Assembly (NCBI RefSeq): GCF_040807025.1
Contig: NC_090982.1
Coordinates: 76,983,931-77,047,930, forward strand
Source of the DNA: Struthio camelus
Taxonomy: Eukaryota; Chordata; Aves; Struthioniformes; Struthionidae
Length of the DNA stretch: 64,000 bases
Direction of reading: 5' to 3'
Part shown: positions 28,613-52,623 of the stretch, one piece after another
Position numbering within the stretch: position 1 is the first letter of the stretch
Layout: each line of letters starts with the position of its first letter
Position numbers and translations under genes: made by a program
The notes under the pieces: model-generated
What the model saw: only the letters and a program-made list of their open reading frames with translations
The model's database searches: none
Told to the model about the DNA's origin: nothing

Positions 28613-28639
28613 CGCCCCACCTACTCAACAGCGCCCACC

Positions 28640-29560
28640 ATCCCACAGCCTGGCCTGCCGCCCCACAACAACTGCCGCCCCACAGCGGCCCTCGGCCGGC
28701 GCCCCGGCCCCAAGGCCCCGCGCGGGGCGGGGGGGAGGAGGCGGCGGCCGCCGCCGTCCGTTACCTGCGCCAGCGCCGCGGCCCGAGCCGGCTGCCGCCG
28801 CCCCGCGTTCAAACGGCGGCTCCGCCCCGGCGGTTGGGCGGGCCCGGGGCGGGGCTGCCGCGAGGCGAGGCGGGGCGGGGGCGGCGGGCCGGGGCCGGGG
28901 CCGGGGCCGGGGCCGGCATCGGCATGGTGTCGCCGGGGGAGCGGCGCCCGCGGGCCGGGGCCGCCGGGGACCTGGCGGCGCTGGCGGAGCTGGACGAGGC
29001 GGCGCTGCTGGGGAGCCTGCGGGAGCGGTTCCTGCGGCAGCAGGTCTACGTGAGTGCGGGGGGCGGCGGCGGCGGGCGGCGGGGGCCGGGGCGGCGGGCG
29101 GCCGGGGCGCTCACGGCTCTCCCTTCGCCGCCAGACCGACGTCGGGGACATCCTCATCGCCATGAACCCCTTCCAGCGCCTGCCGCTCTACGGCAGAGAG
29201 GTCAGTGCCGGCCCTGGGGCGGCCTCGCCGGGCGCCTCGTCCTGCCTCGGCAGCGGGGTGTTTGGGGCCGGCGGGCCGGGCTTGGCCCCGCCGGCTCTTT
29301 GGCCTCTTCTCCCAGGCCCCGCTTTCCCCCTCGCTGTGTCGCCGCAGGTCTCCGAGCAGTACCGGCGCCACGAGAAGGGCACGCTGCCCCCGCACATCTT
29401 CGCCGTGGCCGACCGGGCCTACCACGCCATGCTGGGCTGCCGGGCCACCGGGCCCCAGAGCCAGTGCGTCGTCATCAGGTGAGCGGCCCGCCGGCACCGC
29501 CGACGTCCCCCGGGGCCACCGGCACGTGGTTGGTGCCACCGGCGGCACCGAGGGACCGGG
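28640..29560. promoter_or_regulatory. CpG island at the 5' end of the myosin gene
   Basis: Extremely GC-rich, CpG-dense sequence begins right after the minisatellite. It covers the presumed promoter and the first three coding exons of the myosin. Because ARHGEF39 is transcribed the other way from this side, the island may serve both genes. No TATA box was seen. Confidence 0.75.
28891..28914 (+). repeat. (GGGGCC)4 hexanucleotide repeat in the myosin 5' leader
   Basis: Four perfect GGGGCC units, flanked by partial units, end 9 bases before the predicted start codon. The motif is the one expanded at human C9orf72, although here it is short. It could fold as a G-quadruplex in DNA or in the leader RNA. 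Confidence 0.85.
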
Positions 29561-32500
29561 CAGAGGTGGGAGCCGTGAGCGAGGAGCGGTTTCCGGCCCT
29601 CGCGGAGGGCTGGGCTGCTGCCAGCAAGCTCTAGCTGTGGTCTCCCATTCAAAGGGCTCCCATGATTCAGGCAAACCTCAGCTTCAAAGGTTTTGGTGAG
29701 TCAAAACCCGACTTCGTTTGCAAACATGTCTCTGCTCACGGTTTGTCCGGAAAACAGACAGATACGGCTTTTGTGGAGCAAAAAAAAAAAACCCTATGTT
29801 GGGTTGAAAGGGGTTAGTTATGGAGGGCAGAGCCTTGGAAAGATTGACCTACTCTGGGGAAAGCCGTAAAGTGCTCTTCTCTTGTGAAACAACTCCCACT
29901 ACAACTGGTATAATGAAGATTGTAAAGAACAGAATAGAGCTGTTTTCCCAAAGTTGAGCTTCCCACGTACAACCAAAGAGCAGAGTAAAGAAGAACTTCC
30001 TCTTCTTTACTGTAAGACCTTTGGGAATCTGATCAAGGAAAATATTATTCTACTGGGAAGTTCTCGGGACTAGAGGGAAAACCGAGTTTCTTGCAACCAC
30101 AAGCACAGTCACAAACACTTTGCTCCATGATGTTACTGTTGTTGTGTTGGAAATGCCAGGGCCACAGATGGTATCAGCTAGCAGGGAAAGCCTCAAAATA
30201 CCAGCTAATTATCTACTCTGATTACCTTAGAGTAGACTTTAAATGTCATCTCAGTTGAAATGTTAATTGTCAGCTGTTTAATTTAGCATTTTCTTCTTTA
30301 GATTGGTATTCTGATTATGTTATCAATATTTGCCTTCAACATGGTAGGGAAATGACTTGTTGAATAATAACTTGTAAAACTACTGAGCATCATGGTGGGA
30401 CTGGGAGCAGACCTTAAGGGTCCAGACCCTCTTGTTTCTCTAGCCTGCAAGTCATCAATGGCTGTGCTCTACATGAGATGTTCTCACTAAACACGTGTGA
30501 AGTCGTGGCCATGGAGTCAGCATGTGGAAAAGGCTCCTAGAAATGCAGAATAGTCATAGAAATTGCTGTGGGAGATGGAAAGCCATCTGTGGGCATTCTC
30601 TGAGAAATCAGTATTCTAATCAATCTTTTGACAGCAGTTTGTAGCGTCAGAGATAAGAATCTGAGCTGCATCCTGCAATCCGATTAACAGGTTTATTTGT
30701 TCCTATAACAGGAACTTTGTGGTTCTGCTATATGCAAGCAGTAAAGTGATCACTAATAAAATTACCTGGTATGGGTGAAGTTTAGGTCACGGGAAGTATG
30801 AGACGGGAGGAAGTCCCTCCTTTTAGACCACAGTTCATCAAAGCAGCATGAGGAGGTATTAGCTTTCAATGTTCCTGAGACGTCTCCAGGTTTAAGATGA
30901 CCATCTCCAGCCTAGCACAAACCTATATGCTTTCCTCTGGGATATAAACACAACCTCCCTGCCCTTCCTGTTCTCTGTTTAGTCACTCTGCTTTGTGAGG
31001 TCTGGATGGCACGTTTCAGAGTCCGAAAGTGATGTTGGACACAGCAAATGCTTCCAAAGGGCCAAAGGCTCATTTCGATTAAGTCATCTTCTACTGCAAA
31101 TTCTACTGTCTCCTATTGCTTTCCAGACTGACTTTAGTCACAGCCCCAGTATCCTGTGGTAGAGCACTCAGGTCTCCTGGAGATGGCTTTTCCTTTCTTC
31201 ACAGTCTGGTGTAGTTACACATCTGCAGCTGGAGAGCGTGCTTGCAGGACCTAGTGATTCTGTTTCACTTGTTGGAGGGTATGAGGGTGGGCTCAAGCAT
31301 GGGAATATTGGTTGATAGCACCCTTACTGAGGAAGCAAATCACTGCAAACAAATCATCTTATGTATTGGATGGGGACTTTGGATGGCATGTTCTCAGCTG
31401 GCAAAAGGTCTTGTTTTGGTTGTACGTACTCAGATGATGGCAGCCTGATATGTGTTTGGGATCAGGTATCTGTCATGGGGGGCTAAATGCTCAAAGGCTT
31501 TGCAGCTGTGCTGTGCCCAGGACTGCAGCTGGTGTGAGCTTGGGAAATGTTACGGAGTAAAACTAGCTTCCGTGAAGGAGTCTGGCAGTGAGTCCTGGCA
31601 TCCTCCCAGGAACTGATGTCTCACTATGGCTCAGTGACCGCAGTAAACTGGGACCCTGGCTCCCAGCTGTGCATAATGCTGAAGCACTGTTCTCTTCCTT
31701 CATTCCTTTCTAACCAGAACAATTCCCAAAGTCCAGTATAGTCGTTATAACATGATGCTGTCCCTCTGAAAACTGTTTGGTCTCTTGTTTGGGGAGAAGA
31801 GCCCAGGAGAGCAACCCACACGGCCTCAGTGCCAAGAGCTTTCTATCTGGAAACTCGAGTGGAATTTACACTGTTCCACTGGGCTACTGGGAGCTATAGA
31901 GCAGTAAAGCCACACCGGAAGCTCAAAGGTCAGGTATGTAAACAGAGACCTGCCCTTGCGTATACCTTCAGCATTTCCTGCATTGGGTGTTTTTTTATTA
32001 TGCTTATGCTAAAGATCTTTCCCACGAGCACGGTGTCTTGACTGTACTTCCCCAGTCCTGGGAGGACTGGGGAAACTGCTCTCCAAGTGCTACTTATTTG
32101 ACTTAGAGGCAGAAGTGCTGGGAATATGTGACACCAGAATGACATGCGGTGCCTCAGCTGTTGGCCTGAGGGCAGCTTTGCAACTGTATTCCAGTGTTCG
32201 GAAACAGCTGAAGCACGTGGCTATGTGAAGGGCCTGAGGTTTGAGACTGCTATATTGTCATGAGGTCAGTACTCACTTGTGGATATGAGAGGGATGCAGC
32301 AAATGGCTTTGTAAAAAGGGGAAGTTGTCAACCCCAGTGCATGTGAGGGAATCTGCGAACCAGAACGCTTTCGAAGGGTGTTGTTCTCCAAGAACTAGAT
32401 ATATTTTTTCTTAAGAAGCAAAGCAAATGGACTGCCTGGTGCACCTCGTCCAGAAGTGATAGTGTGGAGCATATGGGGAAAAATTCCTCTGGGCAGGGAT

Positions 32501-35500
32501 CAGTATCTTGTGGAGCCTGCTGTATAAAACGGTGGTGCAAATTGGTATTCATGTGTGTGGTGTAGCTGAGAAAGTTGTGATGCACTTGAATATAGGAGAG
32601 TGCTTTCAAGCGATGGGGTGCTAAGACATAAGAGGCAGGACAACTACACTTTATGGCTGGTGAAACTTAACTTTGCTTTTTCTTGGCAGTGGAGAGAGTG
32701 GCGCAGGGAAAACGGAGAGTACAAAGCTTCTGTTACAGCACATAATGAACCTGTGTAAAGGCAACTCACAGCTGGAGCAGCAGATCTTACAGGTAGGTCA
32801 TTACAGGGTGACGCTTGTAGATGGAGAAGTAACGCTGCTGCAAGACGGCTTGTACTTGGCTCAAGGATCCTTCTGATGCGTTATCGCACTGGAAATGAGA
32901 AAACAAAACTTTGGCCGTGTTATAAGGAAATAGTGGGTAAGAATGGTGAAATAGCTGACTAGAAATTAGAAGAGGTGGAAGGATCAGTAATTCTGCTTGC
33001 TTGGAATGTAGTGTGTTGGTTCTTAAATGATATAACCATTGGGATCATTCAGCACGATGTCTGTGAAAAGGGATTAGGGGCTTTTTTGGAATCACTTGCT
33101 GTTTGATATAGAACAAGGACTTTCTTGTATTAGAGACAAAGTCTTGATTTAATGACACACACAGGGATGGAGAACCCATGCAGCCTTTGGTAACCTTTCA
33201 TTGACTAGTAAAATACTTACTCTCAGAAGCATACCTGCTGTTCCTGGCTAGCTTCATCTTTGCTCTTTTGATACACCTTTACCATCTGATCTTGATATAC
33301 TCTTGCCTCTTGATATAAAGTATTTCCATTTGAATTGTTGTCCAAGGAGTTTTTATTTTGAATAAATCATACCTTAACCTTCTATGTGATAAATTAAGCA
33401 GGATGAGCCCTTGGACTACTTCATTATAAAGTCTGTGTTTTCAGGTTCCCTGTGGCGCCACAGAGGTGTTTCTGTGCTGTGCTTTGGGCTCTGGAACAGC
33501 TTATTATTTCAGTGTAGTGTCATCTGTGGTAGATCTGAGAGGAATGCCTGGGCTGTGTGAACATGGTGTTGATATACCTGCTGGCTCTGCATAGAGGTGG
33601 CTTGGGCCACACTAGCAAGCTGTTTTTGACCTGAGCAGGTTCTGGGAGCAGAATAGCTGTGTTTGCTCGGTGCTGTGCCTAGCCTAATGAACCCTGGCAG
33701 ACTTGACCTGCAATGCTTGTAGCCAATGCGCTATTCCTCCATTTGCAACAAAGTTCACCTCAGTTCAGGTGAGCTGCTTGTGGAAAACTTAGAGGTGACA
33801 GTGAAGAAATAATACAGTCTTCTTATTTTCTTCCTGTAGATATATTGAAGGACTGAGCCCATCTGGGATTACAGTGCAGTGCTGTAAAGTTATGTTCGGC
33901 AGGTTACCCAGCATGTACCCCAACTCCCTTTTCCTCCAACCAGCAAGCATTCTTTGCTCATGTATGAATATATTACGAATATTTCGGAATATATTAGGCT
34001 TTGTCAATTCTTTTATACAGGATATGATAAAACAGACGCTCTTGAGTACTGATGAAGTGCTTCCTATCCCATCAGTAACTAGGAAGAATGCTGAACATCA
34101 AGTGCTCAAGTTAAACTTTTCCAAATGAGTTAATTAGATCACTTAATTTCAGGAGTGCCTGTGCTATTTAAATGCCTGTTTTAGGTAAATCCATTGCTTG
34201 AAGCTTTTGGCAATGCCCAGACTGTGATGAATGACAACAGTAGCCGCTTTGGAAAATACATACAGCTGCGTTTCCAGAAGAATACAGGTAAGGTCAAGGG
34301 CAACATTTGAAATGACTAATTTGGGGGATGGGTGGGCATTGGAGGGACTGGCCTGAGTAGCCAGAACTTGTGGTGGGTAAAGTTTGGACGCTTGATACTC
34401 TGTGGGGAGGGTGTGCAATTAAGAAAAATCCTACAGCAACTAAGGCTTTAGGATAAGGCCTGGGTTTGGACAGTGTGGGAGTAAGGGAAGGTTACTGAGG
34501 TCATGGTGGAGGGGAGCTGTTAGTTGTACGCCTTGATGGTTTCTAACAAAGGTCATCCCCTTTAAGATGATGGGAAGCATGGAGAAGACCACTTCCAGGG
34601 AGCTGGGCAGCCTTAAGGGTGTCGTGCACAAGATACCTATTTTAGACAACTCTATGCTCCTATCACCAAATAAGTGATGGGGGACAGGTCAGCCAGCTTT
34701 ATGTTTCCAGATGCAAAGTTTACCTTGTCACTTTCTTGTGTGCAGTGAGAGGTGCAAAGCTGAGCGAGTATCTGTTAGAGAAGTCACGGGTGGTACAACA
34801 AGATACTGGAGAGAGGAATTTCCATATCTTCTACTACATGTTTGCTGGGCTCTCTTCAGAGGAAAAGGAGATGTATGGGCTATTGGATCCCTCACTGTAC
34901 AGGTACTTCAAAGGCAGACTGCGGTTTAGTGTTCATGTTGTGCGGTAGAGGGGGAAGCAGCATAGCAGAGCCTATGGCTCTGCCAGGGTGGACCCTGGCG
35001 GGGGTGAACAAATGAATGGAAGCGGCAACAGGCTCTGAACAGGGACACATGCAGAGGTCTTCTGGATCAATTTGGAAGCTGGGAGGTCTAGAATCTCATT
35101 TCTCATTTGTATGACCTTGGAAAAGTTTTTCCCTTTCCTCTCTCCACTGCCACAGATCTGCTTTGTTCCCTCGGGGTAGGGCTGATGGCTGTGCTGATTA
35201 TGTGATGATTTTGTATGGGATATACACTTTCTCAGGTACATAAGTGGACGATTTGGTACAGAAGATGTAGCTCAGCACTGGAAGCACAAATATCAAGAGG
35301 TGTGCAATGCCCTTGACATGGTGGGCTTCCAAGAACAGGTGAGTTCTGAGCACCACTCCTGTCTATCTGGGCATCCTGCAGATGTAGGGTTTTTTTCTGG
35401 CTGCTGTTTTGTTTCCCATTTCTCCATCCTCCGAACTTTCCATGCTGCTTCCAAACCACCTGAATCTTGCAGACTGTGTAGAGCCTCTTCCTGCAGGCTG

Positions 35501-35767
35501 CCTGTGCCTTTCCCTCACCTCTCCACCTTCAATGATCTCAGAAATATGGAAGCTCTTTGGGTTGTGGCTCACTGTGGATGTTATATGCTGCACGCTGGCT
35601 GATGATAGCTTTTTGGTCACCCCTGTTGTGTGTTTTAGGAGCAAGTCGACATGCAGGCAATCTTGGCTGGTGTCTTGTCTCTGGGCAATGTAACCTTTGA
35701 GCCTCAGGAGAACAATGGGTCTGTAAAAGTGAGCGGAGCTTCCCAGGGGTGGCTGAAAGCTGCAGCG
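28924..35767 (+). other. Myosin exons 1-8: N-terminus, P-loop, switch I and upper 50K region
   Basis: Exons: 28924-29049, 29135-29200, 29348-29478, 32690-32792, 34185-34287, 34746-34902, 35236-35338 and 35639-35767. All boundaries are GT-AG. The third intron (3.2 kb) splits the codon for the Ser just before the P-loop GESGAGKT. Exon 5 carries switch I. Exon 6 carries [20 protein letters not shown] and [10 protein letters not shown], a canonical upper-50K segment. Loop 1 is short (LCKGNSQLE), as in classes III and VII. I saw nothing else coding in the 3.2-kb intron. Confidence 0.92.
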
Positions 35768-38700
35768 GTGAGTCACAAGAATTGCTGACAGAAACATTAT
35801 GGATGTGATACTGGTCCCCACTAGCAGCATGACTGCATCATCCTTAGAGAATATTTATGTTAAGAAGTGCTCTTAAATTCTTGTATAAGGTGCCAGAATT
35901 TTCCTGTGGGGATTTGAGGAGCTGCTCCTGCCAGATGTTGCAGGGAAGGTTTCTATCTCTTGAAGACTCCTGAAGAACAAGGAGATTTTTCCGGAAATGC
36001 ACAGTATGACCCCATGACTGCCGCTGTGTCCACTGCTGGTGATACCCAAAAAGGCAATTCCCAGCTTCTATTTCCTGTATATCTAGGGACAATATTAGCT
36101 GTACCACTGAACCGAGTCTTGCAGCACATAAGCTGTACCGTGATCCTGAGGCTCTTTATTTCTTTTCCTCAGAAATATTGTCTTGCGTATGGCAATATGA
36201 CACATATCTTGTTGACTTCATGTAATGCAAACGTTTTAAAATCAAGAGTCAGGTGGTGCTAAGTGTGATGCCTTGGAGAAATTCAGGTGCACAGTGTCTG
36301 CACATTAGTTTTGTCTGTTAGACTTGTAATCTTGTCTAAAGATACCAGCTTAACTACTACCAATTTTTGTTTATCCTGAATTAAACGTTCTGCTATTTTG
36401 CCCCAAGTTAACATCAGATTAAGAAGTACATATTTCATTAGACCGTCTCATTTTTGTTATGTGGGACGGATATATTACCTGCTTTTTTAACAACACAGAA
36501 CAGAAAGATTGAACAAATATTTCTGCCTTCGCTCTGTCTTTTTATTTTGACCTGTTTGAAGCCATAGCACCCTTGTCTTTTTGTTTCACTCCCATCTCCT
36601 TGCCTGTTTCCCTCCTACACCACACCTGAAACAAACACCTACGTCTGTTTAGCAGCCAGCTTTTTTGTCTTGCTCTTCACTTATTGCCCACAGGGAGGGA
36701 ATTCCTGTTAAAGCAATTATTAAGGAGTTCAGTTGCATCTGAGTTCCCTTTGTTTCCTCTCTCCTGTGGGTTTGTGACTCTAAAGTCTGCTGACGTTCCC
36801 CTTAGCATCTGCACAGCCTCCTCATCGTGGTGCTGTACCATAGTAAGTCCTTAAACCGTTCAGCAGGGACTGGTGTGTAGCTCCCGCAGAAGGTGAAAGG
36901 TGGCAGCACTGGGAAATTAAAATACAAAGTATTTCAGAGAGCAGCAAGAGTGAGTTTGATCACTTCACAGGATGGTGAAGATCTCAGAGCATACATCTGA
37001 CTCCAGTGCTGCCAGATGTTAACAGTAATATTTATATTACAGCAGAACTCAAAAGGTCTCAATGTGAATCCTGGCTCCATTACACTGGGTGTCACACACG
37101 TACGAGGAGATACAGTCTCCACGTAAGGGTTCGGTATTGGCTATCCCCATCTGTTTCCTCTCTCCCAGGGTCAGTTTGGAGTCCAAGAAGATGAGCTGTT
37201 GAAATGTCTCATTTGCACAATGTCCTTGACCCGGGGAGAGCAGATCCAGCGTTTTCACACCAAGCAGCAGGCGGAAGGTAAGAAACGTATGAATCACAGA
37301 AGTGCGGAATAGAAAGACTGACCTGCTTTTGATGAAAGGGTGTCCCTACTCATGTGCAATTTCTTGGTAACAAAGATATCTGTCTGTGCAGCTTTCTTGT
37401 TTCTTTTGCGTAAAGGCAAGTATATCTATGCTTGTCCCCTGGGACTCTTACCGACACACAGGACCACGAATACTGCTTTTGTTTGATCTCCAAGAGATTG
37501 CAGAGCTTAACTGAGAAACCAGGAAATTATCCTTGCTTTATCCCTCAAATCCAGACTTTAAAGACAATTGTAGATATTTGTGCAAAAGTGGGGAAGGCTG
37601 CTGCTGCAGAGTGCTGGCAATGTGGAGAACTCTAGGTAGTAGCTGGAGAATTAAATAAGAGGATCAGTGCAACAGCACAGTGTCAGTGAAGGAGTGAGAT
37701 GCATGGGAAGTATGTTAAAATAGTGTGAAGTGTTATTTTTTCTTTCAGTAAGAAAATAAATTAATCCAAGATAATCTTCACAAAAGATTGAGTTAGAATA
37801 AGAGACATTTTTAAAAAATAAACATATGAAATCCCAGAAATTTCTAGATTATTGCTTAAAAAATAGAACAAAAAAGTGAAAACTGAGAATTATTTACCTC
37901 TGTTTCCTCTTGTATCCTCTTGTATCTCAAATGTCTCCTCTTGCACCTCTCTGGACAATAAAATAAACATCTCCAGTCAGTAGTGCATCAATGGGTCATG
38001 TTAATTTGATCTCCCTCTTCTTAGAATGCCAGCACATTTTTCAGCAGTTGCATTCTCCTTATTTAAGCTCTTTGGGCAGCAACTGTAGGCTAGCAGGAAG
38101 TTCAAGTGTTTGCAGTGGAGCCATTCAATTTTCCAAATACTACTTGGAGGCTTTAGTTTGAATTTAACTGTAATAGGGCTCATACGCAGTAGACAGGCAA
38201 AGGAGGAAACAAGTCTCTGGGTAGTCTAAAAAGCAGCTAGACTCGTTTTTTTTTTTTTTTAATGAACTTTTCCATTTTATGTGATTTTACAAGTGCTCTA
38301 GTACCGCATATCTGGTCTTGTAGGAAGGAAGACTTCAGAATGGAAGTGTTATGTTTGAGCTTGCAGAGGGTAGGGAAGATCAGCAGACATCTGATGACTT
38401 GTCTCCAAAACAGCTTCATAAACCATTAGACACTATTGCTAGAGGTGGATGTGCTGAGCCAACTTGTATGCTGTGTTCCCTACTCTCCCGGGAGCCCTTC
38501 CGTGAGCCACTGTCATTCTCTGTTGCCCTGTGCAGATGCTCGAGACTCCATTGCAAAGGTGGCATATGGCCGAGTATTTGGCTGGATTGTTTCCAAGATC
38601 AATGAGCTTCTGGCTGAGAATGTGGATCCTGAGGTAGAGCTGAGGGAGATAGGTGAGTTCTGCTTGTCTTACTCCTGTTCTGCCCCCATACGTGCATCCC

Positions 38701-41700
38701 TCAGCCGTGATGGAGGAACAGCGCAATATGAGGTATCATGAAGATTACATTAAGGATTTCAAAGAGATGATCATACTGGAGATACTAGTCAACAGCGTGA
38801 AATCTGTAGGGCAGGAGCCAGCCCAGGGCAGCTAGGTGGTCTGAAGTAAGGTGGTCTGTGAGGCTGTAGTTCTGGGACGCTCTGGCTTTGCCGAGGAGGT
38901 GGGGCTTGGTGTGGGGGTCTCCTAGCTAGTTCTTCAAAAGGAACTTTGAGAGAGCTGCAGCTGACAACTTGGCTCCATGTGCCCCAAGGGCCAGATGACA
39001 CTTGTAGTGTGATGGGGTATTTAGCTACCTGTAGGGATGGTCTGCAGGCTCCATGGCATGTTCGTCTTCCCTCTTCTAGGAATCTTGGATATTTTTGGGT
39101 TTGAAAACTTTGCAGTGAATCGCTTTGAACAGCTTTGCATAAACCTGGCCAATGAGCAGCTGCAGCACTTCTTCAACCATGTAAGTCTGCAGCAGGTGAT
39201 CTCACCTGGCGTGGGGGGGGGGAAAGCAGAGCACTGATCTACCTGGGATGTGAAGGAGAATGGGAGGAAACCAGGACCGTTGCCTGGAAAGATAGAAATG
39301 GTGCTTAGTACAGCAGGGTAGGGAGCAGCAACCTTATCTGCCATGGCAGAGGAACCACTGGTGCAGGGAAAGTAGGAGTAGATAGGTCAAGCAATGACCG
39401 AAATAGTAGAGTAGGGACATGTGAACACTGTGGTGGCTCAAGAAGTGTTCCTGCTTTATGTGCCAGCAGCAGTGAGCAACAAGGTTACAGATAGGCGTGC
39501 GGAACAGCAGTTTCATCTTGGGCCTCTGATCCATGAATAAGAGAGTCATGCCTCCATCCTCTGCTCAGGGTGGGAAGGAAGATGTTTAGGGTTGTCTAAC
39601 CCGGTTTGGAGACTCTAGCCTCTGCTTTCTCTGTCTCAGCACATCTTCCAGCTGGAGCAGGCTGCCTACAGGGAGGAAGAGCTGCCTTGGGAAACTATTA
39701 AGTTCAGCAATAATGAACCCATTCTGGTGAGTGATATAAGACTGACAGAAGAGAGGTGCCCCATCCAGCCAAGAGAAGAGATTTCCTCATTCCACCATGG
39801 GGAGGAGATGTATCTGGGAAGAAGCTCCGCAAAGAGTGATGTAGGTGAGAGGGGATGCCCTGTACTGCTTTAGTTATGTCTAACGACTCTCCTTTCCTTG
39901 CAGGATCTGCTCCTGGCCAAGCCACTTGGGCTGCTGTCTCTTCTGGATGAGCAGAGTGCATTTCCTCAGGTATGGGTGAGATAGGAGACAGAGCAAATGG
40001 TGTGGAGAATGAATATCTGTGCTGCAGAGAGAGCTCTAATGTTGGAGTGTGACTGTAAACAGGAGGACGAGCAGAGGTGTTCTCATGTGTGGATAATGGG
40101 ACAGGACAGCCAGATCAGGGACAGTCCAGTCCCTGCAGAGAGTCAAATAAGCTCAAGTACAGTACGAAATTGTTGCATGGTCAAGGCCACTTCCAAAACT
40201 TTGTTTTACTTCCATGTGCCCTGATCAGGACTATGTTGCAACTTTATAGTTTGATTATGAAAACTGTTTTCTTGCAGGCAACTGATAAAACATTTGTGGA
40301 TAAACTAAACAGCAGCTTTAAGGGGAATTTGCATTTCCAGCCAGGTCGGAGCCGTGTTTTGGGCTTCAGCATCATTCACTATGCCGGGAACGTAAGTCCA
40401 GTTTTCAGGAAGCATGCTTTGGAATGTATGTAGGGGAGAGGAAGGGGTTTGACAAATAAAGCTTTGAAGTTAAGCAGTACATGGTCCCACAGGAGTGAAG
40501 CGTTCCCTGAGAGCTGTCTTCTAGGGTAAGTGGAGCTCTTTAGAAAGTATAGGAGGAGAGATGACTCCTGAAGAAAATGAGGCTTGTCTGGGAAGCATAA
40601 GGTTTCAGAGGTATTTATGTTGTACCTGTCATCACTATATTGGAGCTCTGGTCTTAAAATAGTCCTTCATAAAGTGAAAGCCCTGCATGCATTGTAAAGC
40701 CCTGAAGGCAAAGCCTAATGGCTTATGTTTAGCTGTCAGGGGTCCAGAGCATAAAAGTCACGAATTTATTGCAAACACTGAGGAACCCGGTGAAAGCAGC
40801 TAGATAATCAACATTTTGAGGATGGGGGTGCTTATTTACATATTTAAAGGTGAAAGCACCTGGATTTAGGACTATTGTATATAACTTTACTGCCACCAGT
40901 TCTGAATGCTCTGGCCCAAATATATTGAATTGATTGGAATTAATTTTGTAGCAGGAGCAGATGAAGACGGAGGTCGTTGTAGTATGTTTTCAGTAGTCTA
41001 ATTCCACAGCCGTCGACTACGTTATTCCTTGTGACGTTCATTATTAAAAAGATTAACACTTCTCATGAAATGAGAATGGCAGGCTAGAGATGAGAACGGA
41101 AGGGAGCAAGAGAAACAAGGGGATGCATAGCATCAAGCAGAATGGAAGCCTTTTCAAAGGGAAGAGGGAGAGCGAGGAGAAAAGAGAGTGAATCATAAAC
41201 CAAAAGTAAATGAAACGTCATCGTCGTCAAGGAAGGCAGAACAAGAAAAGGTGAATGTCTCAGTGTTATGCTGCAGACCTGTAGTTCTAATGCCTCAGCA
41301 CCATCCCCTTGGTTTTGTTGTTCAGGATGTGCATCTAAAGGGGGTGTATATGTGTTTACAGAGTTGTTGTGCAAGCCATTGTACATTCAGATTAACAGTT
41401 GCCCCGGCCAGCTGTTGAGGTGGCTTTTGGGGCTAACCTGTAAGCACTGCTGGCCTTACTGACTTGCTGCACTTTCCCCTAGGTACAATATACTGCTGGT
41501 GGCTTTCTAGAGAAGAACAGAGACACCTTGCCAGCCAATGTTCGTGGACTCTTCATCAACAGTGTCACTCCTTTGCTCAGCGTGCTCTTCACAGGCAAGT
41601 CCCTCTATTGTGATGGGGCAACCCACGTTAATCAGGGCCCTCCTTAGCAAGAGCTAAGTGTGGGAATGAGGCTTGTGTGCCAGGAATGTGTTCCAGAACT

Positions 41701-44700
41701 GGCAGCCTCAGAGAGGTTCTGGGAAACCTGCTGCCTGGAGTGAGGCTTCTGACATATACAGAGCTGTCTGAGCTACTCCATTCCCCTTGGTACTGATGCA
41801 TGGTAGCAGAAATACCCCCCAATACCCCCTCCTTGGTACCTAGCACCAAAGAGTTCACAATGTAGACTGCAGTAGAGACACAAGCAATGAGTGAAGAGGT
41901 GATCCTTTTTGAACATATTTCATTTTCCAGCGACAGCTCTGGATAAAAAAAAAAAACTCTGAGGTCAGGTGCATTATTTCTCCGTCTTCCTTACACTCCC
42001 TTCTTCCAGTTACTAATAAGCCCTCAGAGTGTCCAAAGCTTCTGTGAAAGTAAAGATTAAAAAAAATCAGGTGGGTTCCTTGGAATTATCTAGCTGAACA
42101 CAGTGCTCCTTGTGCAGATTTTTTTTTTGTCTTGTCCAGTCCAAGCAGCTATCTAGGATCTACAGGCAACTGATAAATTTCATTTTCAGTCTCCATTGTG
42201 TTTTGCAGTTCTTCTGCTCGTGTTCCACAAATGTCTGTTTTTGTTGCTTCTTCCGCACTGCTGCTGAAGATATTTAGTCTAGTCCCAAATCTTTGTAAGT
42301 TCATAAACAGCAGGTATAACCTGTTCTCCGTGCAGATGACACTGTTGCATCAGGGTGTACAAGACTCTCATTAAATCATCCAGTAAACTCAGCTTCCCTG
42401 AATTTTGGATCTTGTTGCTGAATTATTTTCAAGTTATTTAACTTTATATCATCTCCCATGTTGACTGTTGTGGGTGAGCTTTCTGTTTGCTATCTATACT
42501 TTTTTCCTGCATTGTTAGACCTTCCCTGTTTGTGATATTTCTTTTGAAGGTCATTTAGGGTTGTTAAGTAACCTGATTGCCTTGTCTTCTCAGTGGCAGA
42601 AAACAGTATTGCCTGGATTGTCTGCTTTATGTAGTTGAGTGTTCTTCTCTTCTTTAGCTCTTTCCTTGTATTTTCCTCTTTGTGATTCAGTATTTATGGG
42701 GAGATTTGCATATTTGCAAAGTTTGAATATTTAGGCATGGTTGACTGTGGGTAAGGGTACAAAATTAATTATTGTCTTTGTTTTTCCAGCCACTATCTCC
42801 AGGACAGGGACACTGATGCCTCATGTTAAAGCCAAGGTATCGTACTTCTGGTCCACATGGCAACTGATAATTGGTGGCCCAGTTCCTGATATGCATGACT
42901 GAAGAAGCAGATTGAAATTGAGAGCAGACACTCTCCCTCATTTTTTACTGGGTTTTCTGCTTACTTCTGTTGCTATGTTTAAATTGCCTTCCCTCCCTGA
43001 AATCCATTCTCTCTCCTTTTAGCTGTCTGGTTTCTGGCAGAGTAATCAGGCTCCCCTTCCGTGGGTAATCCTTTCGTTTGCTCTGGTTTCAGGTCATACC
43101 AGGAGCAGATGACAAGTTCAACAGCACACGAAAGCAGTCAGTGGGAGCTCAGTTCCGGGTAAAGTACTGCTGCCTGCAGTGCCCCTTGAGATATGTGCAG
43201 CGATATTCTTGAGAGCTTCCAGGATGCTACATGTAGTAAAGCGTCCAACATATGGACTGGGGCTTTTTTGGATGCCAAGCACAGCTGATCATGATAGGAG
43301 TGACCTGGCTGTCATCAGACCTGGGCAGCTGATGTTACGAGAGCCTGAACTGGTGGGGTGGGAAGGCAATTCTCATCTACAGGATAGCGCACTCAGAGGG
43401 GTCTGGTAATGCTTTGGCTAGCTGGGCTGTTGATCTTTGATCTTTCTCTGCCCTCACCAGCATTCCCTGATGGTACTCATGGAGCGGATGTATTCTGCCA
43501 ACCCGCACTTTGTGCGCTGCATAAAGCCCAACAGCCAGAAGGAGCCAGGTGTGGTGGACAGCCAAGTGGTGCTGCAACAGGTAAGGAAAAAGCAATTTTC
43601 TTTTCAGGTGCTTCATCTGAGTCTCGGTCTTTGGATATTGTGTCAAGTCTTAGGTCAAGATCCTTTAAAGAGTACTGAAAATGTTCAGAAGAGTTCAGAA
43701 AGCTCTGTGGTCTGTTTGATGTATATAAGGATAGGATTAAGAGGGAAGTTGAGCTGGTGCCTTAGAGTACCTCTGTGTACAGATTTAGAAGTAGAAGGCT
43801 ATTCTCTAAGAGACAGAAGTAAAGCAATACCCATAGCTAGAAGGTGAAAGTCATTCTGGTAGTTGTTTTGTGTTCTAACTTTTAACTGAGAGTAGTTAAT
43901 CACAGGAGTTGCAGGATTTGGTAAATTCAGTCTTTAACCAAGGAAACATTTTTAAAAAGAAACTGTCGTTTGAACCAGAGCGATTTGGGATTGAATGAAC
44001 GAGTTTCTGCCTGCAGAGGGACAAACTGATATCCTAATGACCTGTTCTGGCCTGTGTCTGTTTGTTTCTCTGATCCTCTTTATGCTGCTGCTTCAGCTCC
44101 GGTACAATGGACTCCTGGAGACCGTCCGGATCCGACGAGATGGTTTCTCCTGGAGACCCTCATTTGAGGAATTTGCCGAAAGGTTTGTTAAACCTTTAGA
44201 AAGTTCCATGTTAAATATTGTCAGGGAAGTGACGTTGGTAACTGGATACGGGCAGAGAGTGAAATTATCTTTAAAGTTCACGTGCCTGAGACCATGGAGT
44301 TATTTGCTATGGAAGATTGAGTAGAAAGGCACTGATTTATTGTCATTTGCTGTGAGAGTGACGTGGATCAGCACATCAAGGCTATGACTCTTACCTTACT
44401 GAACTGGTTTGTTTTTGACAGATATGGAATTCTTCTAGGTAAACCAGATGTGTCTCTCACAAAAGAAAGGTAGGAACCCTGCTTCTATCGTGTGCAATCC
44501 AGTTTTAGTCCGTTTTGTTCTTCAGAAACTTTTATTCTCAGGATAGCATAGCAAACTGAGTAAAAGGAACAAAGTGAGGATGCTTTTTGGTGGTGATGGA
44601 GACCACAGATTCCTAGACAAAGATAGTTAGGGTTTTATAAATCATTTAGTAAAACGATGAATGAGATCTTTTGTGGATTGCTTTATATGTAGCCTTTCTT

Positions 44701-45157: not shown

Positions 45158-45188
<31 letters not shown>

Positions 45189-48100
45189 CTTCTAAGAAAA
45201 GAAATTGAATGTCCTTCTGGAAAAGCTCTCTCCTGGGAGCAGTTCCTCCAGCCCTCACAGAGCTTCCTTGAAATTTCTGATGGTACTGAATTAATAAGAA
45301 TTGCAAACCCAAGTGAGGTCAAAAGAAGGTCTTTTAGGTGAGAGAGACGGTGGTAGACAGGCAGCACTATGTATTTCCAGACATGAAACTCCTAGGATGC
45401 ATTTGGGAAAAAAGTAACCTGGCTTATAGGTTCTGGCACAGCAGAATTTGGCTGAGAGAGAAGTAAAACCAGTTCTATTTTGCTCTGCAGGATGATGGTA
45501 GAAAGTGCCATTATGGCTTTATGGTCTGGATTTGCAGGCAGAGGGAGGAGGTTGTCTTTGTGATGCACCTGGAGTATTGCCTTCAAGTCTAAGTATTATG
45601 AAAGATACAAACGTTGGGGAAATAGGGAATCTTTTCAGGTGACCCAGGTTTTATCACCAAAGCCTGCAAAATGAAATCAGAATTGGAAAACTAGCTCTTT
45701 CCAGGGAATATCATCATACAGGTCCTGCAACTTGTGTGCTCCCAAGAGTTCAGAAACTAAATGGTGAAAACCACCTCTGAGCATAGGATATGCCCTGCAG
45801 AACTGCCTTCCCAGGAGCTGAAGGGAGTCTGTCTCTAGGAACCCCTTTGCTGACATTCCCCAGTGTAATTCTCTCCTAGCTGTTCCTCAAGGAGCTCTAC
45901 GGATTGCAAACTAGTTACTGAATGTGATCAGGTGATGGTGGGCAAAGAAAGTAACCCAGAATTGTTGAGGCACTTTCTTCTCCTTTATACACCTAAAACC
46001 ACTGGCTGCATAGCCTCTACTTTGGGTGGAAAATGACTTTTGCACTTCTTTCCTCTCTTTCAGCTGTTTGGAGATACTGCAAAGTACAGAGTTGACAGGC
46101 TGGATATGTGGGTAGGTGTGGATTGCTGGTGCAGGGAGTGGGGGGCCTGAACTGCAGAGACTTTATCCACCTACGCTGCTATCTGGCTCCCTTCAGGGAG
46201 AATACTATGGCTGTATCAAGGGCCTGTTCAAAGGATGATGGGATGCAAGTTCAGACAAACAGTGTTTCTCATTGGTTCTTTCCTCAACCTCACAGAAAGT
46301 CACGACTTTTCTTTAAATACTGGCACCAGGAGCAGCTGGCAAAGTGTGTGGAGCGACTGGAAAGAGCAGCAGTTGTCATACAGAAAGGTGAGCACTGGTG
46401 CAGGAGAGCCCCTCAACTCTGATCTCATACTAGGGAGTGAGGGCTGGCTTGTGAGTGGTGTTAAGCTGAGGAGGCTCTCTCAAGTAGATGAGAGTGGCAC
46501 AGATCTCATTCCTACTTTCAGAGACAGGCAGAAGGGTGTGATGACGCAGATATAAGATACATATTTTTTCCCCGACCAAGCAGTCTATGCCCTGGCAGCC
46601 TGTTTCTACAGAGCAAGGCGCTGCGGGCAGTCTGGTACTTCTGTCGGCACAGGCACCGTGAGGACTAAGGCAGGAGGAGTCTCTTTCTGCTGTACTTCTC
46701 ATCTGTATGGGTTGTTGCACTGTGCCCACTGCTGAAGCATCTGAGAAGCTTCCAGCTGGGCAACACACAGTACGACGAACATCAGGCTGTCACATGCTGT
46801 TCCTTGTTCTGATCTGTGGGAAAGATGTGTGGGTAGTGTCCTTACGGGAAGGAGAGGGTGCTGCTTTCAATTCATGGGCTTTCATACCTGCTGAAGTGAG
46901 AAGGATAATGTAATGTCTCTAATGCTGCTGGTGAACCCTGTATTGGCTGCTTATGGGAAAGGTCATCTCACAGACTAGTATCAAGGAAATCCTGACTCCT
47001 GCACAGCTGAGCTCTGCTTTTACTCATTAGTGACCCAGAGGAGATAAATGGTTAACAGTGACCTTTGTGTGATCTTTTCTTTAGGTATCTTGTGCCTTGT
47101 CATTAGAGATAAGAGCTCAAATCTCTGATTTGATTTTTAAAATCTGTGGTCAGACAGGTTAGAGAGTAAAAAACAGTTCTGACATGGTTTTGGCTGCATG
47201 TTAGCAGCAGAGAGCCTGCACTGCTCTGCATTAATGGGGTTCAAGCGCTGAAGGCTTTGTGCAGGGCAAAGGAATATCGCTTCCACCAGGGACTGACAAG
47301 GCATGATTAGCATTTTTTTCTAACCACAGCTTTTCCCTGAACAGCTTTCAGGGGATTCAGCTGCAGGAAGAGATACCTGAAACTGGTGGCTGAGCTGAGA
47401 GCTCAGGCCCTACGGCTACAAGAGGAGGCAGAAAGAGAGAGAAGCCGGCAGCGGGAGGTGGAAGCAGAGGCCCAGAGTGAGTTGCTTCCACTTCCACTAC
47501 CCTAGTGTGTGGCTACTCATGTGATGATCGCTTCAAAGTGCTTTAAGTTCCTGAGGATGATGGCATGTCCTCGGTTCTCGTGGGACTGAGGGCTCCACTG
47601 ATGCAGTCCATCTGAAAGTGAGGTTTTCTCTGTGAGGAACAGAAAGAGTGATGGAGGTTATTTGCCTGGCTGTGTTGAAGGGAATGCCAGGCTGTGCCTT
47701 TCCCATCCGCTCAGTGGGGGAGAGCTTTGAATCATTGCTCTGTGATTTTATGTAGCTTCTCCTTGAGACATCTGGAGTGGGAGTTGACAGTGGGTTTGAG
47801 GCCATGTTCTTTGTCTCTTTTGCCCCTTCTCAGACTTAGTAGCCTGGCTGAAGAGAGGTAGGGAAGGACTGAGCTCCAGACTTATTTTCTTGATGGTCCC
47901 TCTTCCAGCTGTTGCTATAGTGTGTGCTGGAGAGGCAGAATATTTCCTGTCCTCCATGGGTGGCAGTATGCCTGTGCCTGTCCTGGGCGTATGGAGGATG
48001 GATCCCATGGATCTTGGATCTCAAATTTCGTCTACCTGTTCCTCTTGTTGCAGAAAGAGTCTCCCTGCCAGTCCCCGTGCCACGAAAGAGACGCCCTCAG

Positions 48101-51100
48101 CCTTGTCCCCGCCCTGCACCTGATATGCCACGACAGCCACCGGTCCCACGGCCACGCAGCAAACTCACAGAGGTAGTGATATTAGCTCTGTCTGGGGTCA
48201 CTTAGGCACATTTGCTGTTTCCGTGCTCCTTCCACCTTCTGCATATGCATATTCTCTTGCATGTGGTCACAGGAGAACACTGTCTTTCTCTTTATCAGAC
48301 ATGAGAGAGTCCTTTCCTAGTGTGGTTAGTGAAAAAACTTGGTCAGTGCTTTTGAGGAACTGAAAGCGGAGTCTGATGGTTGGTGATCTTGTCCTAACTG
48401 CAGGGACTCAGGAGTGGGAACTACCAAAGTGATCTCTTCAGGGAGCCCTGCCTCTGACCTTGCTTTCATGCCCACTTTCCCCTGTCCCCATTTTCAGTCC
48501 ACTCCTTTTGATAATTTCCTGCACCCTTCTGGGCCTCGCCCCATTCTGGGGACAGAGGAACAGACTGGAGAAGAGGCAAAAATGCGGAAACTCAAGAGAG
48601 GAGCAACTCTCCGTTGGTTCAGAGAGACGCAGGCCCAGAAGGTCATGCAGGACGATGGGGCCTTTCCAAGCTGGCTGCATGGGATGATCAGCCGGAGGTG
48701 AGTATACTAGGGGGTGGACACACTGGCTGCAGCTGGGGCTGGGGCAAAGAGGCAGAAGCTGCTGCGTCCTTAGGATGAGAGGTTGGAGTCCCATGGATTT
48801 GCCTCCATAAAGAAACAGGATATGCAGGACTTTTCGCTTCTAGGTTGTGAGCTTCAAACCATTAGAGGGAGCTTTGGAGCTCCTTGCCACAGGATGTGAA
48901 TGCTGAAACTTTACATGGGCCCGAGGAAAGGCTGTGCAAGCTCATGGAAAATAAATCTGCTGTGGGTTCTTAAATACAGAACCTGTGCAGGGAAGGGAGG
49001 CTGGGAAAGTACTTGAAGGAGAAATACCCATAAATGTTTATCCTGTTATGGACCATTTGCAGAGATGTGATATGGGATGAAGGTGGACTTTTGGACTGAC
49101 TCATTATGGCTGTTCTCACATTTCTCAGTTGCCGTTCTTACAGCAGAGGAATGCAGAATTCAATATACATTTATTAAAAAGACTATTAAGAGGGGCTTTT
49201 GTGAGTATCCAATGGCAAGATCCCCAAAGCCCCCAGGCATGGGAGGAGGCCAGGTTTTGTGGATACCTCTTCCTATCTAAGGAGAGGACAGTGTAGCTGG
49301 AATTTACCTCCCCTAGCCTGGGAGAGGCATCCACAAAACCCTGCCTTCCTGTGGAGGCATTTAAGGGTTTGTGAATTCCCAAGTTTTTTTTTTTTTTTGG
49401 CCAAACCCTTTATTTAAATGCCTGAAATTATGCTACTGTGTATGCCTCTCACATTACTCTCTTGGCTGAGCCAAACACTTTTTCTTTCCAAGCAGTGTGA
49501 CAAGCAGTGAAGTGCTGATTATGCCAGCGATCAGATAGCAGCAAGATAGTGAGGTTAGCAGGTAGATGCCAAAGTTTCTAGCTACAGTTTCCCCTGCGTA
49601 CAAATTAATTTATGGTGTTGCATGCCTGCTAGCTGCCAGTGCCCCCTTATTTACAGGGACTTGTGTGTAGGCATTGCTACCAAATGTGCCTGTCATTCAA
49701 ACATCCTCATCATCTTATTCCAGTTTGCAACATTTTTCTGTTAAAGCTGCAAGTCTCCTTTGGTCTTAGATCACAAGTTGCTGGGTTTTATTAGCTTGTC
49801 AGCGTGAGCATTACTCAGAGACATTACGCAGCGTGCTAGCTTAGTATAGGGCCCTATAGAGGCTGACAGCTACTTTTTTTTTTTTTTTAGGTAATTAACA
49901 AGGCCCCAAACTGCATCAGTGCTTTTGTCCATGGATGCAAAAATGCTTGAGAAGAGCTAGTGCCTGTGGGACAAAACTGAGTTCAAATATAGGCACACAC
50001 TGAGGTTTTAAGTACTTTTGAAGTGGTGCTTCATGCCCTGGATTTAAGTCCCGGTGCAGTAGAGTCAGTTTAGCCTCATGTAATAGAGTAGGAAGAGCAA
50101 TCCCAACTTGCACTGGTGATGTGCAGTTGCCTTTAGTCCGAAGCAAGGCACATGGCAAGCACAAAGCAGTGCTTTGTCTGTTGAGCTGAAGGGGGGAAGA
50201 CCTTTTTCCAGTAGGGAGGTTTAGGGAACCGGAGTGGTGTAGCCAAAGTTGGCTTTTCTCCAAGGCTTGCATCGTGCTGAGCGCCACTAATCCATAGCCT
50301 TCTGACTTCTTTCAGCAGCCCCAGAGCCTAGGAAATGCGCATGTGCACAGTCTTCTCATCTGAGCCAAGCTTTGTCATGTGCTCTGTGCTGGAAGGTGGC
50401 TGTTGCTATTGCACTAGACTGCCGGAGCAGCTTTGGAGGAGCCCTGCTTGGAAAGGCTTTGGCTGAGAGTATTGCACCACATCAGCATGTTAATGCCTCC
50501 CTGCGCTAGCAAGCCTGAGCTTGGAAACCTCTAGTTGGGAACACAGAGGGCAGATACTGCCCTGCCGGTGGACTGGGACCACTACCATGGTAGCAAGGTT
50601 GGGAATCCTTGCACAGACACAGCTGCTCACTGTCTTCTGAAAAACTCTTTCCTTCTTCCAGGGAAGCTGAAAACTTGCTGATTGACAAGCCTTTGGGCTG
50701 CTTCCTTGTTCGCATCAGCCAGAGCCGACCAGGCTACACCCTGACATACAGGTAATAAGCACTGTAGAGAAGGAAGAAGAAAATCCTAAAATGAGCTATG
50801 TATGGCTAGAATAGTTAACTTCCTCCATGGAGTAGTCCATTGAGTCTGATGCTTAGTCTCTCCCGTTGTGGGGTGCCTCAAACACAGCTTGGAATAGCCA
50901 ACAGGACACTGTAAAGTCTGTCTCTTTCCAAAGACTAGATCAGTGTGTGGGTGGGGTGATGCTACTCTGGGGCTTACAGGGTGCAGGTACTGCTTGACAT
51001 GTGTTAAATGGCTGTGTGGGCAAGCCAGGCTGGAAGAAGCATCCACTGGGGCCTGAGGAGTGATATAGCACAGGAGACTTTTCTAGGGAAGAGTCTGAGG

Positions 51101-52623
51101 AGAGGTAATCAGTGTGTGCTGGAAGCATATGGCATCATGCAAGATAGAGTAGTAATGTGGACAACAGACCTAGGAGATGGTACAGGCTGCTGGGGTTTGG
51201 ATCCAGATGCCTGGGCTCTCTTTGTGCCCCTGTGCTGACTCTGGGGAAACTGCTGCTCCTCCAGCACCTGTTAGCACAGTGTGCAACACTCCAGCATGGA
51301 GGATCTCCTGCGCTTTTGCAATATTTGGCACTGTGGCTCTTGATTGCATCTGGGCCTCTTGAGACAACAAGTACAGAAAGCAATGACTGGGTCCTGGAGA
51401 GATGCCGTGGCCCTGTGTCATGACTATTTGTCTGTTCCTCTCCCCAGGGGTGAAGGACGCTGCAGACACTACATGATCGAGATGCAGCCCAATGCACGCT
51501 ACGTAATTCTGGGTGAAGATCGGGCTCATGCCTCACTCACTGAACTGGTTCGGTATCACCAGACGGTGGGCATCCAGCCCTTCATGGAGACACTTACTGT
51601 TCCCTGCGGACAGGTGAATGCTGAAAATCTGCAGCAGGAAAAGGGGCTGGGGCCTGGGACTGTGCCCTGAGCAGAAATAGCCACTGTGGCAATATCTCTG
51701 CTTTGTGTTCCCGTTGTGGGAGTCCTGTACTGGTCAAGCAGTCTGGCCTCTTCCGCACGTAGCGGGGAAGGCTAGTAGCTGGCCACTGGGGTTTCCTGGG
51801 ATGGATGATAGCCCCTGCCCTATGCTTGTCAGTAATCACAGCTGGATATTGCTCTTAGCCGTGCTGTTTGGGGTACATAGAGGGTCTGTAGTGACCGCTG
51901 CTGAATCTGCTCTTCTCACCCTTAGAAAAGCAGTGGGAGTTTGGATTATGAAGACCTGGAGTGTCTCACAGTAACTCCAACTGCAGCTGAGGAGGAGACC
52001 CCTCCAGGGGAGCAGGCTTGCCTCTCTGGGCCTCCTGTTGGAAGGCCCGCTCTACAGACAGGAGCAGCCTCAGTTCTCAGACGCGTGTGGTTCAGGAGGG
52101 CCAAGAAGTGCCAAGAGCAACAGAGCCTGGATGAGAGCAGGACAAAGCCAAGCCCAGGAGAGGAGGGAGGCGGCCAGCGGGCATTCCCTCGCCTTCACTC
52201 CTCCATACGCTTGGCGATGCAGGAAATCCAGCAGGTGAGCAGGGGGCAGCTCCAGCCTTCTAGTGCATTCATCTGCCACAGCCATGTCCCCACAGCCACT
52301 GTAGGATGTGTGGAGCTGCCCTATCCATGTATAGGAGGTAGGAGGCTTCCAGAAGCGGTGCTTGGTTTCCTGTCTCCTGGATGACAGGTTTTATTTGGTG
52401 ATCTTGGCATCAAGGATCTGTTCATTGAATGTGCCAGGTTGGGGGAGACCCTGGAGGGGATCTCTGAGATTCGTAAAGAGAAGTCCACAACACAAGGGGC
52501 TGTGACATGGCCAGTGACCCAGCCAGTACTTCCCTAATGCTGTATCTCTGCTTCCCATTGCAGTTCTCTTCCATTCCCTTGAACAGCTCCTGTACTGAGC
52601 TGCAGTCGAACCCTCAGGATTGA
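28924..52623 (+). CDS. Unconventional myosin with C-terminal SH2 domain, 29 coding exons
   Basis: All 29 exons join without a frame break into 1068 residues. Order: short N-terminus (1-42); motor (about 43-680); one IQ motif (about 707-720); charged helix (about 722-755); Pro/Arg-rich linker (756-860); SH2 (about 853-946); acidic and basic tail (947-1068). Motor hallmarks are intact: P-loop GESGAGKT (109-116), switch I NDNSSRFG (158-165), switch II DIFGFE (385-390) and actin-interface HFVRCIKPN. The motor most resembles class III ([19 protein letters not shown]) but shares features with classes VII, X and XV; I do not assign a class. There is no kinase domain before the motor. The start at 28924 is the first ATG in this frame, has G at -3 and +4, and leads straight into motor sequence. 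The predicted role is an actin-based ATPase motor with phosphotyrosine-binding cargo or targeting capacity. The gene is head to head with ARHGEF39. Confidence 0.92.
37169..44182 (+). other. Myosin exons 9-19: cardiomyopathy loop, switch II, relay, loop 2 and SH1 helix region
   Basis: Exons: 37169-37277, 38536-38652, 39080-39180, 39640-39726, 39904-39969, 40278-40391, 41483-41594, 42790-42836, 43093-43158, 43461-43580 and 44097-44182. The TEDS-rule position, 16 residues before DSIAK, is Glu330 in LTRGEQIQ. Switch [10 protein letters not shown] and the relay segment [14 protein letters not shown] follow. [10 protein letters not shown] and HFVRCIKPN are intact. Loop 2 is short and mildly basic. 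Exon 19 encodes [12 protein letters not shown], the SH1-helix and converter entry. The intron after exon 15 starts with GC instead of GT. Confidence 0.92.
44422..47476 (+). other. Myosin exons 20-23: converter, IQ motif and charged helix
   Basis: Exons: 44422-44469, 46064-46111, 46296-46387 and 47345-47476. The converter ends with [15 protein letters not shown]. The neck carries one IQ motif, [16 protein letters not shown], split between exons 22 and 23. This suggests one calmodulin or light chain and a short lever arm. Exon 23 continues as a strongly charged helix ([20 protein letters not shown]) of about 30 residues. That is enough for a single alpha-helix extension or a short coiled coil, but I cannot say it dimerises. 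Confidence 0.88.
45157..45188. repeat. (AT)n and poly(T) simple repeat in a myosin intron
   Basis: About nine AT dinucleotides are followed by about 15 T. The same layout recurs nowhere else in the gene. Confidence 0.85.
48054..48697 (+). other. Myosin exons 24-25: proline/arginine-rich linker leading into SH2
   Basis: Exons: 48054-48172 and 48498-48697. Exon 24 encodes a 39-residue segment with [18 protein letters not shown] followed by [11 protein letters not shown]. It contains several PxxP cores flanked by Arg or Lys, the arrangement bound by SH3 domains; the RKRR cluster could also be a nuclear signal or lipid contact. Exon 25 holds [13 protein letters not shown] just before SH2. The same WF-ETQA lead-in occurs in adaptors of the SH2D2A/HSH2D/SH2D7 group, as I remember them. 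Confidence 0.85.
48650..51613 (+). other. SH2 domain exons of the myosin (exon 25 end, exons 26 and 27)
   Basis: SH2 starts with [16 protein letters not shown] at the end of exon 25, continues in exon 26 (50662-50751) with [19 protein letters not shown], and ends in exon 27 (51448-51613) with [19 protein letters not shown] and [16 protein letters not shown]. The invariant phosphotyrosine-binding Arg is present in FLVR (about residue 878), as is His in CRHYMI (beta D). The domain is about 94 residues and looks complete. Its closest known relatives by eye are SH2D7, HSH2D and SH2D2A. Function as a phosphotyrosine reader is inferred from the intact pocket. Confidence 0.93.
51926..52623 (+). other. 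Myosin exons 28-29: C-terminal tail
   Basis: Exons 51926-52234 and 52564-52623 (stop TGA at 52621-52623). The tail begins [14 protein letters not shown], an acidic tyrosine motif (Tyr about 954) that could be a phosphorylation site. It continues through a low-complexity acidic part, a basic stretch [13 protein letters not shown], and an end with [18 protein letters not shown]. No recognised domain was found. The tail is moderately conserved at best and is specific to this gene as far as I can tell. Confidence 0.85.

Follow-up and report, generated by a model that had tools for sequence, protein, structure and literature searches.

Can one vertebrate gene join a myosin motor to an SH2 domain, and would such a gene be new? 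A stretch of 64,000 nucleotides from the ostrich (Struthio camelus) contig NC_090982.1, which we call the window, raises this question: a sequence-only reading of it had joined 29 in-phase exons at 28924..52623, with 3207 coding bases, into an intact myosin with an SH2 tail and had presented the architecture as new. We found that the ostrich myosin is a single intact gene that runs from motor through SH2 domain in one frame. The combination of motor and SH2 domain is already known as a published myosin class, class XXVIII (Myo28), and we reject the claim that it is a new architecture.

The ostrich gene joins a motor, one IQ motif and an SH2 domain

We made the gene model independently of the earlier exon list, by searching the window with bird homologues in tblastn; splice junctions were scored by homologue match and splice signals, and two junctions were decided on the raw sequence. 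This spliced alignment to homologous proteins gave the same result as the sequence-only reading: 29 exons at 28924..52623 on the + strand, with a coding sequence of 3207 nt for a protein of 1068 amino acids (aa). All junctions are in phase, there are no internal stops, and 27 of the 28 introns are GT-AG, the other (behind exon 15) being GC-AG. The introns on the two sides of exon 26 are in phase 2, at aa 860/861 and 890/891. The protein is 89.8% identical to that of the goose (1069 aligned columns) and 90.1% identical to that of a penguin (1058 aligned columns), and these identities exclude chance as the source of the gene model. Over the aligned parts only, identity to the ostrich protein is 96% for kiwi and 94% for rhea, and a galliform protein with head and SH2 domain (P0066) shows full-length similarity (85%).

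A Pfam scan found the three domains that the sequence-only reading had proposed to look for: Myosin_head at residues 16–687 (E 5.7e-211, profile 3–679 of 679), IQ at residues 702–721 (E 2.4e-5, above the curated cut-off; a single IQ stretch) and SH2 at residues 853–928 (E 1.6e-16, profile 1–77 of 77). The landmarks agree with these domains, as the P-loop GESGAGKT lies at 109–116, switch I at 158–165, switch II DIFGFE at 385–390 and the FLVR motif at 875–878, and residues 755–800 form a linker with 14 Pro and 8 Arg. The complete motor, one IQ motif, Pro/Arg linker and complete SH2 domain with its FLVR arginine that had been described for this gene are thus all present. Pfam found no protein kinase domain in the predicted ostrich protein, and NCBIfam gave no match for two orthologues.

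A search for relatives returned 5309 proteins above threshold, and what we say of relatives refers to the best 120 of these. Myosin head and SH2 (PF00063 and PF00017) occur together in 117 of the 120 (the exceptions are P0083, P0085 and P0104); the sequence-only reading had proposed a search of other genomes for this domain order. Seven of the 120 carry the source label 'lgn' and are contigs of 3329–3937 bases with uninterrupted open reading frames of 1074–1136 aa. All seven encode head and SH2 domain; their alignment to the ostrich protein begins near residue 16 (in one case at residue 4), reaches at least residue 1045 and crosses aa 711–946, which correspond to exons 23–27, the span over which single transcripts had been called for. 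Because the ostrich gene occupies 23.7 kb of genome with 28 introns and these contigs are so much shorter, we infer that they are spliced transcripts; seven transcript-sized contigs that encode the whole protein without interruption argue for one gene, not two.

The gene is very probably a class-XXVIII myosin

Odronitz and Kollmar (2007; PMC2375034; all papers are cited here from excerpts) defined class XXVIII by a tail with an IQ motif, a short coiled coil and an SH2 domain, and its founding members came from Nematostella, Xenopus, Gallus and some fishes. As excerpted, that paper reports loss of the class in acanthopterygian fishes, has no mammal in its list and sets the class apart from class III in its tree (PMC2375034). 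A later excerpt adds Capsaspora, a filasterean with an SH2-tailed myosin counted as class-28, and places the origin of the class in the ancestor of the holozoans (Kollmar, 2017; PMC5583752). The ostrich protein has the motor, the IQ motif after it and the SH2 domain at the tail end, with no difference of substance from the class; to the class it adds a Pro/Arg linker, a WFxxTQ segment ahead of the SH2 domain, a C-terminal motif and a predicted isoform that lacks SH2. It has a motor and so falls outside the stand-alone SH2 adaptors of the SH2D2A/HSH2D/SH2D7 type. Judged by domain criteria and similarity, the ostrich gene is very probably an orthologue of the class-XXVIII unconventional myosins.

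The claim of a new architecture therefore falls, since the chicken is a founding species of the class (PMC2375034, excerpt) and such proteins from many vertebrates stand in databases as 'myosin-IIIb-like'. The sequence-only reading had said that it would be overturned by a named class found in mammals, and only half of this is the case: the class is named, and it was named from non-mammals. By name, the relatives belong to birds, turtles, alligator, salamanders, a caecilian, coelacanth, non-teleost and teleost fishes and cartilaginous fishes, and a tail-alignment search found frog sequences as well. No mammalian, squamate or acanthopterygian name is among the best 120 of 5309 relatives, which is no proof of absence; it fits the earlier remark that humans have no SH2-tailed myosin. 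In choanoflagellates and filastereans, myosin III-like proteins with an SH2 tail likewise combine a motor with a C-terminal SH2 domain; what sets them apart is that they are described as a lineage expansion in which domains are mixed in many ways (PMC3942036, excerpt).

Several points weigh against this reading. Bootstrap support for class XXVIII was only 750/1000 in 2007 (PMC2375034, excerpt), and a 2014 classification has a 'myosin III-like' group that includes SH2-bearing members (PMC3942036, excerpt), so that the naming of SH2-tailed myosins is not uniform; the relatives are called 'myosin-IIIb-like' or 'myosin-IIIa-like' in databases. A short coiled coil, which belongs to the definition of the class, is not clearly seen in the ostrich protein, where at most 57% of heptad positions in aa 711–757 are hydrophobic in the best registers, by a simple heptad count. 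The seven 'lgn' contigs have their closest counterparts in salamander, fish and ray proteins rather than in bird proteins, and their source label carries no explanation. Finally, what we say of phosphotyrosine binding by the ostrich protein, of its motor activity and of its site in the cell is inferred.

The database names, and the placement of SH2-tailed myosins near myosin III in the literature (PMC3942036, excerpt), would also suit a class-III (MYO3B-like) myosin in which the kinase was lost and an SH2 domain acquired. The class-III proteins MYO3A, MYO3B and NINAC have a related motor according to the same excerpt, but their hallmarks there are a kinase at the N terminus and several IQ motifs (PMC3942036), whereas the ostrich protein has no kinase, one IQ motif and an SH2 tail. 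Furthermore, PF00069 is absent from the precomputed domains of all 120 relatives, and the 2007 tree keeps classes XXVIII and III separate (PMC2375034, excerpt). We reject membership in class III as that excerpt characterises it, on the missing kinase and single IQ motif in the Pfam scan, and consider a class-III origin unlikely.

Less probable again, and in our view very unlikely, is that a myosin gene and a neighbouring SH2D7- or HSH2D-like adaptor gene were wrongly joined. Separate short bird entries named 'SH2D7' or 'HSH2D' do match the SH2 domain, longer entries such as P0171 and P0184 are named SH2D4A-like or phosphatase, and ostrich isoform X4 ends ahead of the SH2 domain. However, all 19 of the 56-aa bird entries among 50 proteins match exactly aa 891–946, which is exon 27 alone, and in our reading they are annotation fragments of this myosin gene that cover a single exon. 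The SH2 domain also starts within exon 25, the exon that bears linker sequence, and head and SH2 domain lie in one protein in nearly all relatives. The contigs, every one of which crosses the junction, largely refute the two-gene explanation, and together with the exon-27 fragments they lead us to reject a fusion. A decaying or silent gene would suit the reported loss of the class in some fishes (PMC2375034, excerpt) and the lack of a mammalian name among the relatives, but the frame is open over 29 exons, the splice sites are intact and the catalytic and SH2 landmark residues are unchanged in 42 of 42 proteins, and we reject a pseudogene as the most improbable of these explanations, in keeping with the earlier judgement that neither a pseudogene nor an assembly artefact is at hand.

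Among the open-licence papers that our searches listed, only PMC2375034 and PMC5583752 appear to concern class 28, and we found no functional study of the class there. A trout association study has a 'myosin-IIIb-like' gene 60 kb from a marker (PMC6723134, excerpt), which may or may not be the same gene. PMC8285899, as excerpted, deals with SH2D4A and myosin-Ib and not with an SH2-tailed myosin.

The SH2 domain is conserved as strictly as the motor

When we compared the ostrich protein with shark P0135, identity was 71% in the motor, 74% in the SH2 domain and 71% in the C-terminal motif, as against 15% in the linker ahead of the SH2 segment and 27% in the stretch after the SH2 domain. The P-loop lysine K115, the acidic residue E330 and the FLVR arginine R878 are invariant in all 42 aligned proteins; E330 we take to be the TEDS position. 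R878 is the arginine expected of phosphotyrosine-binding SH2 domains, and an SH2 domain kept as strictly as the motor argues that phosphotyrosine reading belongs to the job of the protein. The C-terminal motif around PRLxxSIRLAMxEIQQ, which is an addition to the features that had been listed for this gene, fits the strict pattern in 29 of 41 aligned proteins and the loose pattern PRLxSI in 40 of 41. A motor joined to a phosphotyrosine reader is thus an old and strongly constrained vertebrate design that is apparently missing from mammalian laboratory models.

At 52564–52639, the last exon closes in one frame in ostrich, kiwi, rhea and goose (...ELQSxPQx), while penguin, pigeon and an owl use a different one (...IEDxEPK). 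Ostrich DNA at these positions still encodes LRIEDIQPK in the frame of the penguin, pigeon and owl type. The final residues are shifted slightly between bird lines.

The SH2 module is shared with stand-alone adaptors

In the Protein Data Bank as a whole, the sequence closest to the SH2 domain of the ostrich protein is human HSH2D (100.6 bits), followed by SYK (68.5). The tail-alignment search returned Myo28 fragments; the separate genes that came closest were SH2D2A of birds, crocodile and amphibians and a shark HSH2D. Vertebrate Myo28 proteins and the SH2D2A rows and shark HSH2D examined have in common a WFxxTQ segment 15–20 residues ahead of the SH2 domain, which is also found in the motor-bearing P0203 and P0204 and in a partial sea-slug protein (P0200). 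This segment is present in 15 of 20 proteins checked; P0199 and P0184 have the SH2 start without it, and P0194, P0195 and P0196 have neither pattern. The human HSH2D fragment in the Protein Data Bank stops short of the region. P0203 and P0204 are probably invertebrate, as judged from their 36–39% identity to the vertebrate proteins and not from a name. For the sequences examined, then, comparison shows that a WFxxTQ–SH2 module is common to the myosin tail and the adaptors. The adaptors SH2D2A (TSAd) and HSH2D, the nearest stand-alone relatives, differ from the ostrich protein in having no motor, no IQ motif and other C-terminal tails, and we did not find the ostrich-type C-terminal motif in those examined.

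In a 24-row tree of the SH2 module, SH2D2A (support 100/99) and vertebrate Myo28 (87/93) form separate clades. Support for the 22-row ingroup is weak (62/81), and the tree gives no resolved place at the base to HSH2D or to the rows that are probably invertebrate, so that it does not show the direction of descent. One tentative and rather doubtful possibility is that the vertebrate immune adaptors SH2D2A and HSH2D, perhaps together with SH2D7, go back to class-28 myosin tails that were orphaned. The WFxxTQ–SH2 module would then have arisen as an ancient myosin tail, the motor being retained in P0203, P0204 and vertebrate Myo28, and copies in the line to vertebrates would have shed the motor and become free adaptors. 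If this were true, mammals would have lost the motor and kept the tail as T-cell and haematopoietic adaptors. Going by titles, none of the open-licence papers that our searches listed states a link between SH2D2A, HSH2D or SH2D7 and a myosin. The shared module offers a testable link between a myosin tail and adaptors of mammalian T cells, and the exon-27 fragments and class assignment correct the misleading bird database names 'myosin-IIIb-like', 'SH2D7' and 'HSH2D'.

A proposed link between actin and phosphotyrosine

The closest solved motors to that of the ostrich protein are myosin-VIIa, X and XV. These are motors of filopodia and stereocilia. We propose that the motor would walk or tether on actin, in actin-rich protrusions or the cortex, with a calmodulin-type light chain on its IQ motif; a single IQ motif points to a short lever that carries only one such chain. 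The SH2 domain would use R878 to bind a partner phosphorylated on tyrosine. The action of a tyrosine kinase at the membrane or the cortex might make a docking site for the SH2 domain, by which the motor would be recruited or anchored, or alternatively the phosphorylated protein might become a cargo carried or held by the motor. The Pro/Arg linker may bind SH3 proteins. Direct coupling of motor and phosphotyrosine is, from the domains present, reasonable to expect.

Residues 1–794 of the ostrich protein match P0085, listed as 'myosin-IIIb isoform X4' of Struthio camelus, without a difference, which makes the ostrich origin of the window almost certain. In isoform X4, an acceptor at 48404 shifts the frame and gives a predicted product of 811 aa without the SH2 domain. 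Such a protein would keep the motor but have no link to phosphotyrosine and, if the isoform is real, splicing would switch that link off.

Coordinates and surroundings in the window

Table 1. Exons of the ostrich myosin gene and the alternative acceptor, in window coordinates
Feature	Coordinates	Strand	Basis
Exon 1, aa 1–42, start codon	28924..29049	+	Gene model; same Met begins goose and penguin proteins
Exon 2, motor	29135..29200	+	Gene model
Exon 3, motor	29348..29478	+	Gene model
Exon 4, motor, P-loop GESGAGKT (aa 109–116)	32690..32792	+	Gene model, landmark scan
Exon 5, motor, switch I (aa 158–165)	34185..34287	+	Gene model, landmark scan
Exon 6, motor	34746..34902	+	Gene model
Exon 7, motor	35236..35338	+	Gene model
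Exon 8, motor	35639..35767	+	Gene model
Exon 9, motor, acidic residue E330	37169..37277	+	Gene model, alignment
Exon 10, motor	38536..38652	+	Gene model
Exon 11, motor, switch II DIFGFE (aa 385–390)	39080..39180	+	Gene model, landmark scan
Exon 12, motor	39640..39726	+	Gene model
Exon 13, motor	39904..39969	+	Gene model
Exon 14, motor	40278..40391	+	Gene model
Exon 15, motor; sole GC donor follows	41483..41594	+	Gene model
Exon 16, motor	42790..42836	+	Gene model
Exon 17, motor	43093..43158	+	Gene model
Exon 18, motor	43461..43580	+	Gene model
Exon 19, motor	44097..44182	+	Gene model, raw sequence
Exon 20, motor	44422..44469	+	Gene model, raw sequence
Exon 21, motor	46064..46111	+	Gene model
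Exon 22, motor end and first part of IQ	46296..46387	+	Gene model, Pfam
Exon 23, remainder of IQ and charged helix	47345..47476	+	Gene model, Pfam, alignment
Exon 24, Pro/Arg-rich linker	48054..48172	+	Gene model, landmark scan
Alternative acceptor, 94 bases 5' of exon 25; 17 residues, then stop	48404..48457	+	Isoform X4 comparison
Exon 25, linker, WFRETQ pre-SH2 segment, SH2 start	48498..48697	+	Gene model, Pfam, SH2-module comparison
Exon 26, SH2 with FLVR arginine R878	50662..50751	+	Gene model, landmark scan, alignment
Exon 27, remainder of SH2 (aa 891–946)	51448..51613	+	Gene model, fragment comparison
Exon 28, variable tail and most of C-terminal PRLxxSIRLAMxEIQQ motif	51926..52234	+	Gene model, alignment
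Exon 29, final residues and stop codon	52564..52623	+	Gene model, raw sequence

Among the relatives examined, bird contigs that bear the gene are often about 82–90 Mb long (for example 85.2, 89.7 and 82.2 Mb). This length would fit the Z chromosome, and the gene may be sex-linked in birds.

A minisatellite of CCACCAGACCCACAG-type units (27640–28613; periods of, for example, 35, 95 and 187) lies immediately 5' of exon 1. Further upstream, on the – strand at about 18032–24790 and oriented away from the myosin gene, there are weak RhoGEF and PH matches, both under the Pfam cut-offs, in a gene that by resemblance is presumably ARHGEF39. At 14338–15006 on the + strand (approximate ends), two exon-like frames match Pfam Ribosomal_L17 with 35.6 and 46.9 bits (cut-off 27), probably from the gene that we take to be MRPL17, for a mitochondrial ribosomal protein. 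Rfam gave no match within the window at gathering scores. Collagen-like Gly-X-Y runs are present at 4538–4582 and 6501–6599 on the + strand, with another stretch near 8040; they are exons of a collagen gene.

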